From Anaerolineales bacterium (GTDB lineage: Bacteria; Chloroflexota; Anaerolineae; Anaerolineales; UBA6663), in assembly GCA_020845955.1 (NCBI GenBank), contig JADLEU010000364.1:75958-120439 (forward strand): a stretch of 44,482 nt of DNA. Reading direction: 5' to 3'. Below, piece after piece: positions 26,475 to 32,558 of the stretch. The position numbers and the translations under genes are program-made. How positions within the stretch are numbered: position 1 is the stretch's first letter; each line of letters begins with the position of its first letter. The notes below the pieces were generated by a model. The model was given only the letters and a program-made list of their open reading frames with translations, was not told the DNA's origin and made no database searches.

Positions 26475-27686
26475 ATGAAAAATCGCTCGATGCTGATGGC
26501 GGGCGTCCTGGGCGTGGCGCTGGCGCTGGCATTCGTCCTGACGCTGGCAGCCCACGCCGGGACGGCCCAAGCCGCCCCTGCGGCGCAAGAGGGCCAGTTC
26601 ATTACCGTGACGGTCAGGTCGGGCGACAGCCTGGCCAAGTACGCCCGTCTCTATGGCGCGTCGGGCTCGGCGCTGGTGAATGCCAACCACCTGGCCGACC
26701 CGAACCTCATCTTTCCGGGACAGGTAATCGTGATCCCGGTAGTCAGGAGCTCCACGCCCAGCCTGACCACGCCGTTCTTCTACACGGTGCAGGGCGGAGA
26801 TACGCTCAACCGGTTGGCGGCGCGTTTCGAGATGGACCCGAGCGTGATCGCCGTCACGAACGGCTTAAAGGACGACGTGGTGGTGGCCGGCAGCACGCTG
26901 CTGATCCCGGCCGGGCCGCACAGCCACGTGGCGCAGCCGGGGGAAACCCTGCGCAGCATCGCCGGGCTGCACGGCACGACAGTGCTGGTGCTGGCCAACA
27001 ACAACCCGGGCGTGCCAAACCCCGACCTGATCTTCTCGGGGCAGCCGATCTTCATCCCCATCCAGTACAACGCCCAGCCGTTGGGTCTGCACAGCGCCGC
27101 CACGGCGGTGCCCGGCGCGACGGCGGCGCCCGGGGCTACCAACACGCCCGCGCCAGGCCCGACTGCCACGCCGGTGGTGCCGGGATCGGAAAACTGGATC
27201 AAGGTGACGGTGCGCAGCGGCGAGAGCCTGGTCACCTACGTCAGCCGCTACGGCGTCAGCGGCGGCCGCCTTCGGCAGGCGAACCCCTACCTGGCCGATC
27301 CGAACCTGATTTTCCCCGGCGACGTGATCAATATCCCGGTGGCGGTGTCGTTCTCGCCCAGCCGCACGACGCCGTTCTTTTACGTCGTCAAGGCGGGTGA
27401 GACGGCGGACGCGATTGGAGCCAAGTTTGAGGCGGCGGGCAGCACCCTGATAGCGGCCAACCCGGGCGTGGCCTTCAACGCAGGCGCCACGATCCTGGTG
27501 CCGGCCGGGCCGCACCTGTACCGCGTGCGGCAGGGCGATACGCTGGGCACCATTGCGGCCAAGTACGGCACGACGGTGGACTTCCTGCTGACAGGCAACC
27601 AACTGCCCAATCCGAACGCGATCTTCCTGGGGCAGCTGATCTTCGTGCCGACCCAGTACAACCAGAGCCCATTGCCATTCGATTAG
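26475..27686 (+). CDS. Secreted protein with six LysM domains
   Basis: 403 residues from ATG 26475 (GGGAGG five to nine bases upstream). A Sec signal peptide (positively charged start, hydrophobic 7-27, AQA-A cleavage near 34) is followed by six LysM modules at about 43-88, 101-145, 149-195, 242-288, 301-343 and 348-392. A Pro/Thr/Ala linker (about 205-238) splits them three and three. Corresponding modules match across the halves: ADPNLIFPG recurs in modules 1 and 4, TTPFFY opens modules 2 and 5, and IPAGPH / VPAGPH ends them. The gene therefore arose by duplication of a three-LysM unit. LysM binds N-acetylglucosamine polymers. No catalytic domain is attached, so it is probably a wall- or sheath-binding protein. 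Confidence 0.92.
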   Translation: MKNRSMLMAGVLGVALALAFVLTLAAHAGTAQAAPAAQEGQFITVTVRSGDSLAKYARLYGASGSALVNANHLADPNLIFPGQVIVIPVVRSSTPSLTTPFFYTVQGGDTLNRLAARFEMDPSVIAVTNGLKDDVVVAGSTLLIPAGPHSHVAQPGETLRSIAGLHGTTVLVLANNNPGVPNPDLIFSGQPIFIPIQYNAQPLGLHSAATAVPGATAAPGATNTPAPGPTATPVVPGSENWIKVTVRSGESLVTYVSRYGVSGGRLRQANPYLADPNLIFPGDVINIPVAVSFSPSRTTPFFYVVKAGETADAIGAKFEAAGSTLIAANPGVAFNAGATILVPAGPHLYRVRQGDTLGTIAAKYGTTVDFLLTGNQLPNPNAIFLGQLIFVPTQYNQSPLPFD

Positions 27687-27756: not shown

Positions 27757-29154
27757 TCAGGGCTTGGGCAGCCGGAGCGGCAACCGGATGAGGAAGCGAG
27801 TTTCGCCGGAGCGCGATTTGACCTGGATATCACCCCCGTGTTTGTTGACGATGTTGTAGGCGATGTTCAGCCCCAGGCCGGTGCCGATCCCGGGCGGCTT
27901 GGTAGTGAAGAAGGCTTCGAAGACGCGCGACTGGATCTCGGGCGGGATGCCGGGGCCGTTGTCGGCGATCTCGACGACGATGCCGTCGTCGTCGGGGCAG
28001 GTGGTCAGGCGTACTTCGCCGCTGCCGCCGAGGGCGTCGACGGCGTTGTCGATTATGTTGGTCCAGACCTGGTTCAGCTCGCCGGCGTAGGCCTCGATGC
28101 GCGGCAGACCGGGCGCATAGTCGCGGGTGACGGTGATGGTGGGCTTGAGCTTGTGGCGCAGGATAACGAGCGTGCTGTCGAGACCCTCGTGGACGTTGAC
28201 CTCCTGCACGGGGGCGCGGTCCAGATACGAGTAGCTCTTGACGGCCTTGACGACCTCGGAAATGCGCTCCGAGCCTTTGGCGATCTGGTCGAGCAGGGCA
28301 TAGACCGCGCTGCCCAGGCCGAGTGATTGGGCCAGGACGGCAATCTGCCCGGCTGAGAAATTCTGGCCGAGGCGCTCGAAGTCGTCCATGCCCCAGCCAA
28401 AGCTGACCAGGGTGGGGGCCAGGTTCCAGGCTTCGGGCACGCCGTGGGCCGCGAGCCAGCGCTCCACGGCCGCCTCCAGGTCGGCGCGGCTGAGCGGGTC
28501 GAGCGTCACCAGGGCCGCGGCGTGCTGGGCCATGGCCTGGCGCAGCTGGGTCACTTGCTGGCGCTGGTGGTCGTCGAGCTCGAGCGCGTCGAGGGCGCTC
28601 ATGGCTTGCTGCCAGCTCAGCAGCAGCTCGCGCAGCTGGGCGGTGGCACGGCCGACGGCGGCGGCGGGGTTGTTGATCTCGTGGGCCAGCCCGGCGGCCA
28701 GCGTGCCCAGCCCGGCCATCTTTTCCTTTTCGTGCAGCATGGCCTCGTTCTGGCGCAGCCGGGTGGTGACGGTGCGCAGGATGGCCAGGGCCGCCGTCGG
28801 GCTGGTCGCCAGAACGCGCTCGAACATCTCTTTGGAGAGCGTGAGCAGCCGGCTGGTGCGCAGGGCATGGACGGAGGCCGAGCGCGGGATGTTGTCGAGC
28901 AGCGACATTTCGCCGATGAACTCGCCCGGCCGGCGCACGTCGAGCTTGACGTCGTGGGCGCCGGAGCGCTTGGTGACCTGCAGCTCGCCGTCGAGGAGCA
29001 CGTAGACGGCGTCGCCGGGCGCGCCTTCCTCGATCAGGACGGCGTTCGGCCCGATCTCGATCTGCTGGGCTTGGGCCGCCAACTGCTCGAGGTCGGCCTC
29101 GGGTAGGGCTTCGAAGAGCGGCAGCCTGCGCAGGACGTCGAGCTCATTGCTCAT
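27757..29154 (-). CDS. Histidine kinase with cyclic-nucleotide-binding-like domain
   Basis: 465 residues from ATG 29154; the longer open frame upstream overlaps the zinc-finger gene and reads as low-complexity noise. The N-terminal Crp-type cNMP-binding fold (about 10-125) keeps the phosphate-binding-cassette pattern GEFIGEMSLLDNIPRSASV. The kinase part has H158 in GLAHEINNPAAAV, a long helical insert (about 175-290), N-box NIIDNAVDAL, G1 IADNGPGIPPE and G2 GIGTGLGLNIAYNIV. No membrane segment is seen, so it is a cytoplasmic sensor kinase. It is the last gene of the flavoprotein / zinc-finger / kinase unit and its likely partner is the receiver domain of the flavoprotein. The nucleotide or other ligand is not known. 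Confidence 0.9.
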   Translation of the reverse strand: MSNELDVLRRLPLFEALPEADLEQLAAQAQQIEIGPNAVLIEEGAPGDAVYVLLDGELQVTKRSGAHDVKLDVRRPGEFIGEMSLLDNIPRSASVHALRTSRLLTLSKEMFERVLATSPTAALAILRTVTTRLRQNEAMLHEKEKMAGLGTLAAGLAHEINNPAAAVGRATAQLRELLLSWQQAMSALDALELDDHQRQQVTQLRQAMAQHAAALVTLDPLSRADLEAAVERWLAAHGVPEAWNLAPTLVSFGWGMDDFERLGQNFSAGQIAVLAQSLGLGSAVYALLDQIAKGSERISEVVKAVKSYSYLDRAPVQEVNVHEGLDSTLVILRHKLKPTITVTRDYAPGLPRIEAYAGELNQVWTNIIDNAVDALGGSGEVRLTTCPDDDGIVVEIADNGPGIPPEIQSRVFEAFFTTKPPGIGTGLGLNIAYNIVNKHGGDIQVKSRSGETRFLIRLPLRLPKP

Positions 29155-29161
29155 GCGCGCG

Positions 29162-29416
29162 TCAGACGTCGGTCTTGTCGATGTAGCACCAGCGCCAGGT
29201 CTCGCCGGGCTGTAGGGAGCGGATGATGGGGTGGCCGGTAGCGTGGAAGTGGGCCGTGGCGTGCTTGTTCTTGCTGTTGTCGCAGCAGCCGACGTAGCCG
29301 CATGTGAGGCACAGGCGCAAGTGGTGCCAGCGGTCACCGGTCTTCAGGCAGTCGACGCAGCCCGCGGCGGCGGGCTGGACATCGCGGATCTGGTCGAGGT
29401 GGGTGCATTGACCCAT
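29162..29416 (-). CDS. UBP-type zinc-finger protein
   Basis: 84 residues, almost entirely one zf-UBP (ubiquitin-hydrolase-type zinc finger) domain: C4, H6, C20-x2-C23, C36-x2-C39, C44/C45, then H52, H56 and H62 in HATAHFHATGHP. Eukaryotic homologues bind the free C-terminal Gly-Gly of ubiquitin. The bacterial stand-alone forms have no established role. It lies 7 bases from the kinase gene and 10 bases from the flavoprotein gene, so it is surely co-transcribed and probably an adaptor or zinc/redox-sensitive element of that system. All ligand positions expected for zinc appear present. Confidence 0.9.
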   Translation of the reverse strand: MGQCTHLDQIRDVQPAAAGCVDCLKTGDRWHHLRLCLTCGYVGCCDNSKNKHATAHFHATGHPIIRSLQPGETWRWCYIDKTDV

Positions 29417-29426
29417 GCGGAGGCTC

Positions 29427-31088
29427 CTAAAGCGAGGCGAGATACTTGTGCACGAAGGCCACGGCCATGGCGCCTTCGCCCACGGCCGAGGCCACCCGCT
29501 TGATGGAATTTTGGCGTACGTCGCCGGCCACGAAGATGCCGGGCACGTTCGTCTCTAGCCAGTACGGTTCGCGGTCGAGCGGCCAGCCCTTGGGGCGCTT
29601 GCCGTCGCCCAGCAGGTCGGGGCCGGAGAGGATAAAGCCGTGTTGGTCGCGCTGCACGACGCCGGCGGTCCACTCGGTGTACGGCACGGCGCCGATGAAG
29701 ATGAAGAGCGCCCGGGCCGGCACGGTCTCTTCTTGGCCGGTGTCCACGTGGCAGATGGTGATGGCCTCCAGGTTGTTTTCGCCGTGGACCGCCGTGACGT
29801 GAGAGCACATGCGCTTGGTGATGCCCTCCTCGTCGATCACGCGGTCCACCAGGTACTGCGACATGCTGGAGACCAGCGATTCCCCGCGGCAGACGAGCGT
29901 GACATGGCCGGCGTACTTCGTCAGGTAGAGCGCTGCCTGCGCGGCCGAGTTGCCGGCGCCGACGACATACACGTCGCCGTCGCGGCAGGACAGCGCCTCG
30001 GTCATGGCGGACCCGTAGTAGACGCCAGCGCCGGTGAGGCGGTCGATGCCGGGGACATCGAGCCGGCGGTAGTTGATGCCGGTGGCGATGATCAGAGCAT
30101 GGCAGCTGACCTCGCTGCCGTCAGCCAGCGCCACGAGCTTGTAGGAGCCTTCCAGGCGCAAGCGCTGGGCCTCCTGCGGCCGGAGCAGCTCGGCCCCGAA
30201 ACGCTCGGCCTGGGTGAGCGCGCGCCGCGTGAGATCGGCGCCGCTGATGGCGGTGGGGAAACCCAGGTAGTTCTCGATGGCGGAGCTCTGGCTGGCCTGG
30301 CCGCCGGGGGCGCTGCGCTCGATCATGAGCGTGGCCAGCCCTTCGGAGGCGCCGTAGACGGCCGCCGCCAGGCCGGCTGGCCCGGCGCCGACGATGACCA
30401 GATCATAGAACGGGGTCTTGGTCTGCGTGCGCAGTCCGACCTTTTGGGCCACCTGCATGGTGGTGGGCTGGACCTGGTGGGCGCCGTCGGTGTACAGCAC
30501 GATGGGCAGGTCGGCCCCGGTGCGCTGCATGGAGGTGAGCAGCACTGCGACGCTGGAGTCTGAGTCGGCGTCGAGCCACTGGTAGGGGATCTGGTTGCGG
30601 GCCAGGAAATCCTTAATGTCGTGGCTCTGCCGCGACCAGCGATGGCCGATGACGCGCACGCCGTCGAACCGTGGCCGGTAGCCCGCCTGCCAGTCATCGA
30701 GCATGTCCTGGAGCACCGGGTAGAGACGCTCCTCGGGCGGGTCCCAGGGTTTGAGCAGGTAATAGTCAATCCTGACGTTGTTGATGGCACGGATAGCGGC
30801 GTCGGTGTCGGCGTAGGCCGTCAGCAGGGCGCACTTGGCGTCGGGGTAGAGCTGGCGCGCCTGTTCGAGAAACTCCACGCCCGAGAGGCCGGGCATCTTC
30901 TGGTCGGCCAGGAGCAGGGCCACCGGCTCGTCGCGTAGGCGCAGCTTGCGCAGGGCCTCCAGCGCGCTGGCGCCTGATTCGGCGCGCAGCACGCGATAGT
31001 CCTTGCCGAAGCCTCGGCGCAGGTCGCGCTCGATGGCGCGCAGCACCTCGGCGTCATCATCGATCGTGAATATGATGGGTTTATCCAT
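29427..31088 (-). CDS. Fused receiver / glutaredoxin-like / thioredoxin-reductase-like flavoprotein
   Basis: 553 residues in three parts. The receiver domain (1-130) has FTIDDD, phospho-acceptor D62 in LLADQKMPG and K113 in LLKPW. A glutaredoxin-like segment (about 143-220) has the fold pattern VRVIGHRW...IPYQWLDADSD...LPIVLYTDG, but the CxxC position reads SRQS (152-155). The C-terminal pyridine-nucleotide-disulfide-reductase part (about 228-553) has FAD motif VGAGPAGLAAAVYGASEG, GGQA, ATG, NAD(P)H motif VVGAGNSAAQAAL and FVAGDVRQ. Where thioredoxin reductase has its CxxC there is YGSAMTEA (358-365). It can bind FAD and NAD(P)H but cannot do dithiol exchange at the usual sites, so a sensory or non-thiol reductase role is likely. 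It is the first gene of a three-gene unit with the zinc finger and kinase. Confidence 0.92.
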   Translation of the reverse strand: MDKPIIFTIDDDAEVLRAIERDLRRGFGKDYRVLRAESGASALEALRKLRLRDEPVALLLADQKMPGLSGVEFLEQARQLYPDAKCALLTAYADTDAAIRAINNVRIDYYLLKPWDPPEERLYPVLQDMLDDWQAGYRPRFDGVRVIGHRWSRQSHDIKDFLARNQIPYQWLDADSDSSVAVLLTSMQRTGADLPIVLYTDGAHQVQPTTMQVAQKVGLRTQTKTPFYDLVIVGAGPAGLAAAVYGASEGLATLMIERSAPGGQASQSSAIENYLGFPTAISGADLTRRALTQAERFGAELLRPQEAQRLRLEGSYKLVALADGSEVSCHALIIATGINYRRLDVPGIDRLTGAGVYYGSAMTEALSCRDGDVYVVGAGNSAAQAALYLTKYAGHVTLVCRGESLVSSMSQYLVDRVIDEEGITKRMCSHVTAVHGENNLEAITICHVDTGQEETVPARALFIFIGAVPYTEWTAGVVQRDQHGFILSGPDLLGDGKRPKGWPLDREPYWLETNVPGIFVAGDVRQNSIKRVASAVGEGAMAVAFVHKYLASL

Positions 31089-31112: not shown

Positions 31113-32558
31113 CTACAGCGTCTGCACGTCGTGCGGGCCGCTCTCGCGAATGCCGGCCGGCGTGATACGCAGGAACTCGGCATTGGCCTGCAGGTCGGCC
31201 AGGCAGGCGGCGCCCGCGTAGCTCAGGCCCGAGCGCAGCCCGCCGACCAACTGGTGGAGAACGTCGGCGGCCCGGCCGCGATAGGGCACGACGGCCTCGA
31301 CGCCCTCCGGCACGACCTTCTCCCAATCGTCGTCGTCGAGCTGGCCGGGTTTGTCGAGCGCCTGGCGGTCCACGTTGGCAGTGAGCGAGGCCATTCCGCG
31401 AACGACCTTGTAGCGCCGGCCGTCACGGATGACGCTGGCGCCGGGGCTCTCCTCGGTCCCGGCCAGCAGGCTGCCCAGCATCACGGTGCTGGCGCCGGCG
31501 GCCAGGGCCTTGGTCAGGTCGCCGCCATTGCGCACACCGCCGTCGGCCACCAGCGGCACGTCTAGCTCGCGCGCGGCAGCAGCGCAGTCCAGGATGGCCG
31601 TGAGTTGCGGCACGCCAAACCCGGTCACCTGGCGGGTGATGCAAATCGATCCGGGGCCGACCCCGACTTTGACGGCGTCGGCGCCGGCCTCGGCCAGCGC
31701 GCGCACCCCGTCGGCGGAAGCGACATTGCCGGCGATGACGTCGAGGTGCGGGAAGCTCCGCTTGAGGGTCTGCACCATGCGGATGGCATGCTCGGAGTGG
31801 CCGTGGGCGATGTCGACCACGAGCACGTCGGTGCCGGTGGAGGCGCACAGCTCGGCCCGGACCAGGTCGTCGGCGCGCGCCCCTACGGCAGCCGCCACAC
31901 GCAGCCGGCCCTTGCTATCTTTGGCGGCGTGCGGATGGCGGGCCAGCTTGATGATGTCCTGGGCCGTGATCAGCCCGGCGACGCGGCCGTCGGGCAGCAG
32001 CAACGGCAGCTTTTCGACCCGGTGGGCGTGGAGCTGCTGCCGGGCCGATTCGAGGTCGATGCCCGCCGGGGCGGTCACCAGGCGCTCGCGCGTCGTCATC
32101 ACGCTCTCGACCGGCGCCAGCGGATCGGGGGCGAAGAGCACGTCGCGCGTGGTGACCAGGCCCAAGAGGTGGCCGGCGGCATCGACTACCAGCAGCCCGC
32201 CGATCTGGCTGGCTGCCATCTGCTCACGGGCGGTCTGCACGCTGGCGCCCGGCGGCAGCGTGGCCGGGGCCTCGACGATGTGCGATTCGGCGCGCTTGAC
32301 GCGGGCGACCTCGGCCGCCTGTCGCTCGGCGCTCATGAAGCGGTGGATGGCGCCCAGCCCGCCGAGCCGGGCGATGGCAATGGCCATGGGCGCCTCGGTG
32401 ACGGTGTCCATGTTGGCGCTGACGATCGGGATGGCCAGCGTGAGCCGCCGCGTGAGGCGCGCGGCGATGTTGACGGCCGAGCGGCTGGCGACCGACGAGC
32501 GCCTGGGGACGAGCAGTACGTCGTCAAATGTAAGGCCGGGAGTGTCGCGGAGGTGCAT
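31113..32558 (-). CDS. IMP dehydrogenase/GMP reductase-family enzyme with CBS domains
   Basis: 481 residues, normal IMPDH length. The TIM barrel is interrupted by two CBS modules (about 93-205). Catalytic loop C306 in [13 protein letters not shown], substrate-phosphate motifs [11 protein letters not shown] and VMLGSLLAG, and the C-terminal [16 protein letters not shown] match IMPDH. Two points differ. GMGSLGAM reads GMASLTAN, and the region that should carry the catalytic Arg-Tyr dyad (SSDRYF in E. coli) reads [13 protein letters not shown] reductases also lack that dyad, so a CBS-containing GMP reductase (GuaB1-like) is a real alternative. The gene lies 24 bases upstream of the flavoprotein gene on the same strand. 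I would not assign guaB with certainty. Confidence 0.85.

Follow-up and report, generated by a model that had tools for sequence, protein, structure and literature searches.

A 44,482-nucleotide stretch of DNA (the window) from an Anaerolineales bacterium of the phylum Chloroflexota (assembly GCA_020845955.1, contig JADLEU010000364.1, positions 75,958 to 120,439 of the forward strand) carries genes for a flavoprotein that begins with a receiver domain, a UBP-type zinc-finger protein, and a soluble histidine kinase. We consider it fairly probable that these products constitute a soluble two-component system that acts through an NAD(P)H-flavoenzyme lacking disulfide centers, rather than through a DNA-binding protein. 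As an earlier note on this DNA had proposed, the three genes are closely joined. They are co-directional on the minus strand in the order given, with gaps of 10 and 7 nucleotides, and have the following features (window coordinates).

29427..31088, minus strand: flavoprotein of 553 amino acids with receiver, glutaredoxin (Grx)-like, and thioredoxin reductase (TrxR)-like parts in that order (open reading frame, Pfam, AlphaFold; best PDB folds are thioredoxin reductases)
30735..31073, minus strand: receiver domain of the flavoprotein, residues 6-118 (Pfam Response_reg, 8e-16)
30903-30905 and 30750-30752, minus strand: codons for receiver residues D62 and K113, respectively
30438..30659, minus strand: glutaredoxin-fold domain without CxxC, residues 144-217 (AlphaFold, alignments)
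29472..30407, minus strand: TrxR-like FAD/NAD(P) domain, residues 228-539 (Pyr_redox_2, 2.7e-37; Foldseek)
30003..30014, minus strand: site of the lost TrxR CxxC, now G359-S-A-M362, within a conserved GVYYGxxxTEA motif
29162..29416, minus strand: UBP-type zinc-finger protein of 84 amino acids (zf-UBP, 1.7e-13; PDB 2ida, E 7.7e-33)
27757..29154, minus strand: soluble histidine kinase of 465 amino acids counted from ATG (the mechanical open reading frame begins farther upstream, at 29337), with a cyclic nucleotide (cNMP)-binding domain, a DHp domain with a helical insert, and a HATPase domain
28804..29055, minus strand: cNMP-binding domain of the kinase, residues 34-117 (cNMP_binding, 6.7e-19; pocket motif and fold matches)
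28681..28683, minus strand: predicted phospho-accepting His158 in the H-box AHEINNP (conservation)
28354..28587, minus strand: helical insert that separates the two DHp helices, residues ~190-267 (AlphaFold)

A kinase that acts on the receiver should track the receiver domain and not the flavoprotein core, and the linkage counts do so. When linkage is defined as a location within 3.5 kb of the flavoprotein gene, a family kinase is linked to 100 of 103 receiver-type flavoproteins, versus 1 of 51 relatives in which no receiver was detected. The latter group comprises nine flavoproteins fused to a cNMP-type domain and 32 with intact CxxC centers, none of which has the kinase nearby, and 10 other CxxC-less forms, where the single linked case is a contig-edge fragment. 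Fisher tests return p-values of 1e-35 for all loci, 2e-10 for Chloroflexota alone, and 1e-16 when Actinomycetota are removed (28/31 versus 1/47). Shared ancestry is not accounted for in these p-values, and the Actinomycetota set is dominated by Nocardia, so we place weight on the spread among phyla and on changes in gene order. The expectation that kinase and receiver are partners is therefore borne out as an association.

Kinase-linked receiver-type loci occur in six phyla: Chloroflexota, Cyanobacteriota, Acidobacteriota, Actinomycetota, Deinococcota, and Pseudomonadota. Peptide patterns of the study-locus protein were used to scan 84,980 species genomes, and the first 80 loci, found in this way, are therefore biased toward it. 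They represent Actinomycetota, Acidobacteriota, Cyanobacteriota, and Bacteroidota, with 51-60% identity over the full flavoprotein length. The kinase is present at nearly all of these loci and a UBP gene lies near most, whereas the single Bacteroidota locus has the UBP gene and no kinase in view. Further loci come from plasmid records of Deinococcus, Caballeronia, Streptomyces, Tsukamurella, Nostoc, and Gloeothece, several with a 4-nucleotide overlap of the flavoprotein and kinase genes. Gene order differs between loci while linkage stays. The flavoprotein-UBP-kinase order of the window gives way to flavoprotein-kinase-UBP in Nocardia and Acidobacteria, and to UBP-flavoprotein-kinase in Actinophytocola and Solirubrobacterales, and the UBP gene is divergent in Blastococcus.

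A search of 201 Chloroflexota genomes, which is free of the peptide-pattern bias, reveals the same association genome-wide. All 16 genomes with the kinase carry the flavoprotein, and 16 of 19 flavoprotein genomes (partial copies counted) carry the kinase (Fisher p 5e-21). Kinases were sought at E 1e-70 with at most 8 candidates scored per genome, and thus weaker kinases may escape these counts. In one genome with two flavoprotein copies (G092), each adjoins its own kinase. The suggestion of a conserved system thus stands, and the linkage counts within 3.5 kb show that the kinase-flavoprotein neighborhood is conserved.

Some loci depart from this arrangement. Two family kinases accompany a single receiver-type flavoprotein in Caballeronia (L122:4460-9059, one on either side) and in Deinococcus aetherius (L121:1942-9053). 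In another genome (G145, L150:4331-5986, minus strand), a receiver and Grx-fold region runs into the cNMP domain and DHp of a kinase with no TrxR part, and the ATPase part lies in another frame. Gene fusion, gene decay, or faulty assembly could each explain this.

The flavoprotein combines a canonical receiver with a reductase fold that has lost its redox centers. Receiver residues D10, D11, D62, T90, and K113 are invariant in 20 relatives. In the AlphaFold model (mean pLDDT 80), residues ~144-217 form a complete thioredoxin-type fold (beta-alpha-beta-alpha-beta-beta-alpha), which is also a weak mycoredoxin match, and the TrxR fold comes next. The N-terminal CxxC that defines glutaredoxins and mycoredoxins is absent, as RWSRQS (150-155) stands where WCPDC would be. 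Likewise, the CATC of low-Mr thioredoxin reductases is replaced by G359-S-A-M362. Both centers are intact in 32 Chloroflexota relatives that lack the kinase and UBP genes, and both are lost in every regulated member, where RWSxxS and YYGxxxTEA are found family-wide at the positions of the WCPDC-type Grx and CATCD-type TrxR centers. Cys152 and Cys155 are found only in the CxxC-type relatives (20/20 there), and CATC occurs in 0 of 48 non-redundant CxxC-less members. The CxxC-less flavoproteins still have the glycine motifs for FAD and NAD(P). In a tree, a single fully supported branch (length 0.89) sets the CxxC-intact sequences and one divergent row apart from all others.

When we looked for a replacement cysteine in the CxxC-less group, no position was Cys in more than 25 of 47 non-redundant members. 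The best candidates, positions 367 and 328, are Cys in about half of the sequences and were rejected, as was C368, which is near-invariant in a 20-sequence set but absent from the Chloroflexota relatives. Because both CxxC centers are gone, we reject a disulfide reductase identity, and the description of the locus as encoding a reductase module fails in the usual disulfide sense.

The kinase likewise retains its canonical residues. The HATPase_c match is strong (5.8e-26), and H158, E159, N162, P163, N366, N370, D398, G400, G402, G424, G426, and G428 are invariant in 21 kinases. Pfam HisKA finds no match in this protein, but the DHp-CA fold matches ZraS and HK853, with the structural matches covering the flanks of the DHp insert. 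This insert of ~80 residues is conserved across the kinase family and is predicted to comprise four short helices (195-265) flanked by DHp helices 119-189 and 268-311 (pLDDT mostly 85-95).

The cNMP domain of the kinase matches the folds of cAMP- and cGMP-bound domains (Z about 20), and its phosphate-binding cassette, FIGEMSLLDNIPRSA, is canonical and includes the characteristic Glu and Arg. For this kinase, the earlier wording "cNMP-binding-like" was thus an understatement. In addition, the source genome has 11 matches to class III cyclases and 16 to cNMP-binding domains, which makes cyclic-nucleotide chemistry plausible in this organism. However, the canonical pocket is limited to the study-locus kinase and part of its Chloroflexota relatives, which weakens nucleotide signaling as a general feature of the system. 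Since most other phyla have a degenerate pocket, the signal is not a cyclic nucleotide throughout, and we reject a cyclic nucleotide as the universal ligand. A receiver takes the place of the cNMP domain as input in the Nostoc edaphicum kinase and in one Chloroflexota copy (L134). Together with the degenerate pockets, this indicates that the kinase input is exchangeable. The Nostoc edaphicum kinase gene (L120:10281-11672) lies ~2.6 kb from the flavoprotein gene, beyond a transposase and a bestrophin gene.

We also considered a role in Pycsar or other anti-phage defense and rejected it, because the PADLOC matches are only to the kinase cNMP domain, with none in the other two proteins. A TrxR relative is encoded in only two phage-labeled records, both of them unannotated.

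The same flavoprotein core is found with a cNMP-type N-terminal domain in place of the receiver, or with no such domain. Direct fusion of a cNMP-type domain to the flavoprotein suggests that the two input domains are equivalent. In Rhodococcus, Nocardia, and Streptomyces plasmids (L192:223-9402; L193, L196, L128), the last genes of a dnaK-grpE-dnaJ-cbpM-clpB-trxA operon encode a UBP protein and a CxxC-less flavoprotein with a fused cNMP-type domain, so that trxA comes before both. In Paraburkholderia, a receiver-less form is encoded beside Clp and Hsp20 genes. These chaperone and Clp neighbors make stress or protein quality control the likeliest setting for the flavoprotein core. The neighbors of the kinase-bearing form vary.

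In the mechanism we propose, the cNMP-type domain of the kinase would bind a small ligand, which in the source organism is probably a cyclic nucleotide, or perceive another cue, and the kinase would then autophosphorylate His158 and pass the phosphate to D62 of the flavoprotein-fused receiver. Phosphorylation might alter the FAD/NAD(P)H domain via the dead glutaredoxin-fold spacer. Because both disulfide centers are gone, this domain might deliver NAD(P)H electrons to a non-disulfide acceptor, which could be oxygen, a quinone, or another protein (the case in TrxR-like ferredoxin/flavodoxin-NADP+ reductases), or might instead sense redox state. The UBP protein could serve as an optional zinc-bound adaptor for the flavoprotein, and the flavoproteins with a directly fused cNMP-type domain would be the one-component counterpart.

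Several points weigh against this model. Co-localization cannot show phosphotransfer or its direction, and the flavoprotein could instead inform the kinase. The linkage counts come from related lineages and so are not independent observations. At two complete receiver-type loci in Chloroflexota (L133 and L140), no kinase lies nearby, although the L140 genome does encode the kinase on another contig, next to a UBP gene. Degenerate cNMP pockets are seen in the kinases examined from Actinomycetota, Acidobacteriota, cyanobacteria, and Deinococcus, and also in the cNMP-fused flavoproteins. Finally, the cysteine loss could equally mean that the flavoprotein is a non-enzymatic scaffold.

The first of these points can be framed as a rival model, which we regard as rather unlikely. 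The CxxC-less TrxR-like domain might read the NAD(P)H/FAD redox state and set kinase activity via the receiver, with the kinase signaling to another regulator and the flavoprotein having no catalytic output. Loss of both disulfide centers without a Cys replacement, together with retention of the FAD and NAD(P) glycine motifs, is what such a sensor might display. However, the cNMP-fused relatives have no kinase to inform, which better suits flow from an input domain to the flavoprotein, and no second regulator is consistently linked.

If the two-component model is true, bacteria would control redox metabolism directly through a flavoenzyme output. The components are spread among at least seven bacterial phyla, including several soil or stress-tolerant groups. 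The presence of a receiver plus kinase, or of a fused cNMP-type domain, on the same core would offer a natural test of how one- and two-component forms interchange. A more ambitious version of the model is possible, though we advance it only tentatively: a widespread and undescribed class wherein a cyclic-nucleotide-gated soluble kinase signals through the receiver to a disulfide-free TrxR-type flavoenzyme, which gives a redox signal (e.g. peroxide) or passes electrons to a partner, with a ubiquitin-independent UBP targeting adaptor and with exchangeable one-component (cNMP-fused) and two-component forms.

The small protein encoded between flavoprotein and kinase is a genuine UBP finger, with a zf-UBP score of 51.1 bits versus the Pfam gathering score of 22.7. 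C20, C23, C36, C39, C44, C45, H52, H56, H62, and W30 are among its invariant positions, and W74 is conserved in 35 of 36 non-redundant bacterial copies. UBP genes adjoin 70 of 103 receiver-type, 5 of 9 cNMP-type, and 4 of 10 short CxxC-less flavoproteins, versus none of the 32 CxxC-intact forms. The finger therefore accompanies the CxxC-less flavoprotein core whatever its input domain, and not the kinase alone, and it is optional. Among the 201 Chloroflexota genomes, UBP genes are enriched in those with the flavoprotein (14/19 versus 30/182, p 5e-7), but they are often unlinked.

The earlier note placed this protein as the middle component of the system. As a frequent neighbor it qualifies, but not as a required one: many receiver-type loci have no UBP gene within 3.5 kb (only 2 of 16 in Chloroflexota are linked), the finger is alone in many genomes, and it is linked to flavoproteins that have neither receiver nor kinase. 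We therefore reject an obligatory subunit. Solitary UBP genes are common, with no consistent neighbor among those examined. The second UBP protein of the source genome (L151:664-969, minus strand; G000:C106) is one of these, as its 5-kb contig carries neither a flavoprotein gene nor a family kinase gene. In one Chloroflexota genome (G144), a UBP gene lies beside the kinase gene and the flavoprotein gene is on a different contig. Fusions are also found. A UBP finger, cNMP domain, and kinase share one 610-amino-acid frame in another Chloroflexota genome (G026, L135:3464-5293, minus strand), and a UBP finger forms the C-terminus of a cation:proton antiporter in Deinococcus ficus (L129:4219-6255).

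The finger might instead read a ubiquitin-like tail and so link the module with pupylation or a ubiquitin-like pathway in bacteria. The zf-UBP fold, the conserved aromatic residues W30 and W74, and the strong overall conservation are in keeping with this idea, which we nevertheless find improbable. The Arg-Tyr pair of HDAC6, which we take to contact the Gly-Gly carboxylate of the ubiquitin tail, aligns with N47-S48, and Ser48 is invariant in the 36 non-redundant bacterial copies. Tail binding in the known mode is thus unlikely. Also, no ubiquitin-like gene was recognized beside the annotated clusters, although no systematic search was made. The closest structural relative, the bacterial zf-UBP of PDB 2ida, aligns over about 78 residues (E 7.7e-33) with its zinc-ligand Cys and His residues, but that structure has no assigned function, whereas the finger described here is encoded within a kinase-flavoprotein cluster. 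In a 2008 survey, zf-UBP mini-proteins of bacteria appear under the labels putative Zn-finger protein or hypothetical protein (PMC2602986). The link to these flavoproteins would provide a defined setting for learning what bacterial UBP fingers do.

Comparison with known systems helps to define what is new. Enzymatic response regulators (receiver-EAL, receiver-HD-GYP, CheB) likewise join a receiver to an effector, and the D10/D11/D62/T90/K113 set and the linked HisKA-type kinase fit this plan, but the effector here is an FAD/NAD(P) TrxR-type domain that follows a cysteine-less glutaredoxin fold. We know of no studied system in which a receiver has an output of this type. TrxR-like ferredoxin/flavodoxin-NADP+ reductases generally lack CxxC. 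They have the TrxR fold in common with our flavoprotein (PMC8564101, PMC10294844), but the similarity is much lower (about 57 bits or less, versus 171 to TrxR), and the flavoprotein ends like TrxR, without a long C-terminal extension. In AhpF, a thioredoxin-fold N-terminal part also stands ahead of a TrxR-like part, but both parts retain catalytic cysteines (PMC8945050), which the flavoprotein lacks in both.

The nearest fold is that of low-Mr thioredoxin reductase (TIGR01292; PDB 7jyp, 2q7v), with which the flavoprotein shares FAD and NAD(P) motifs. The Grx-TrxR order is shared with Chloroflexota Grx-TrxR fusions. Relative to both, the flavoprotein is without either CxxC and has gained an N-terminal regulatory domain, a linked kinase, and often a UBP gene. 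The proteins named "cyclic nucleotide-binding domain-containing thioredoxin-disulfide reductase" at NCBI (Rhodococcus, Streptomyces, Deinococcus plasmids) have the same CxxC-less Grx-TrxR core and are often encoded next to a UBP gene but, unlike the study locus, have a fused cNMP-type domain and no receiver or kinase.

Such public names suggest a conventional thioredoxin or mycoredoxin reductase that happens to carry a regulatory receiver. The fold, the closest PDB sequences (thioredoxin reductases, as are the best Foldseek folds), and the presence of trxA in the actinobacterial operons with cNMP-fused forms are compatible with this identity. However, the sequence contradicts it, because both CxxC pairs are absent in all regulated members and kept in kinase-less Chloroflexota relatives, and the TIGR01292 equivalog score of 233 bits falls below the cut-off of 343. 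We consider this explanation very improbable. Pipeline annotation gives such proteins the name thioredoxin-disulfide reductase or FAD-dependent oxidoreductase, though disulfide chemistry cannot occur in them. The open-access full-text literature, a scope that excludes subscription papers, yielded no description of the cluster or of a flavoprotein-type two-component output. Thus, the parts are of known kinds, but their combination and the systematic loss of both redox centers in the regulated branch appear to be undescribed.

The transcription unit may exceed three genes, since guaB (31113..32558, minus strand; IMP dehydrogenase, TIGR01302, 525 bits) lies 24 nucleotides upstream of the flavoprotein gene on the same strand, with further co-directional genes ahead of it. 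Although this layout might suggest chance neighbors in a longer housekeeping operon with no common function, that notion is already contradicted by the joint presence of kinase and flavoprotein in six phyla, in differing gene orders and with genome-wide co-occurrence, and is hardly credible. Possibly guaB is co-transcribed with the three genes, but it falls outside the conserved unit. Counts of promoter and terminator signals at the locus are near shuffled expectation, with none convincing. The next gene downstream (26475-27686) codes for a LysM protein and is convergent.

Other neighbors recur on plasmids. In three cyanobacterial plasmids (L120, L197, L198), glgX and a gene for an AGE-family epimerase precede the flavoprotein gene. 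In two of these, a gene for low-temperature-requirement A follows the flavoprotein gene, and this gene is also present in the Deinococcus locus L121.

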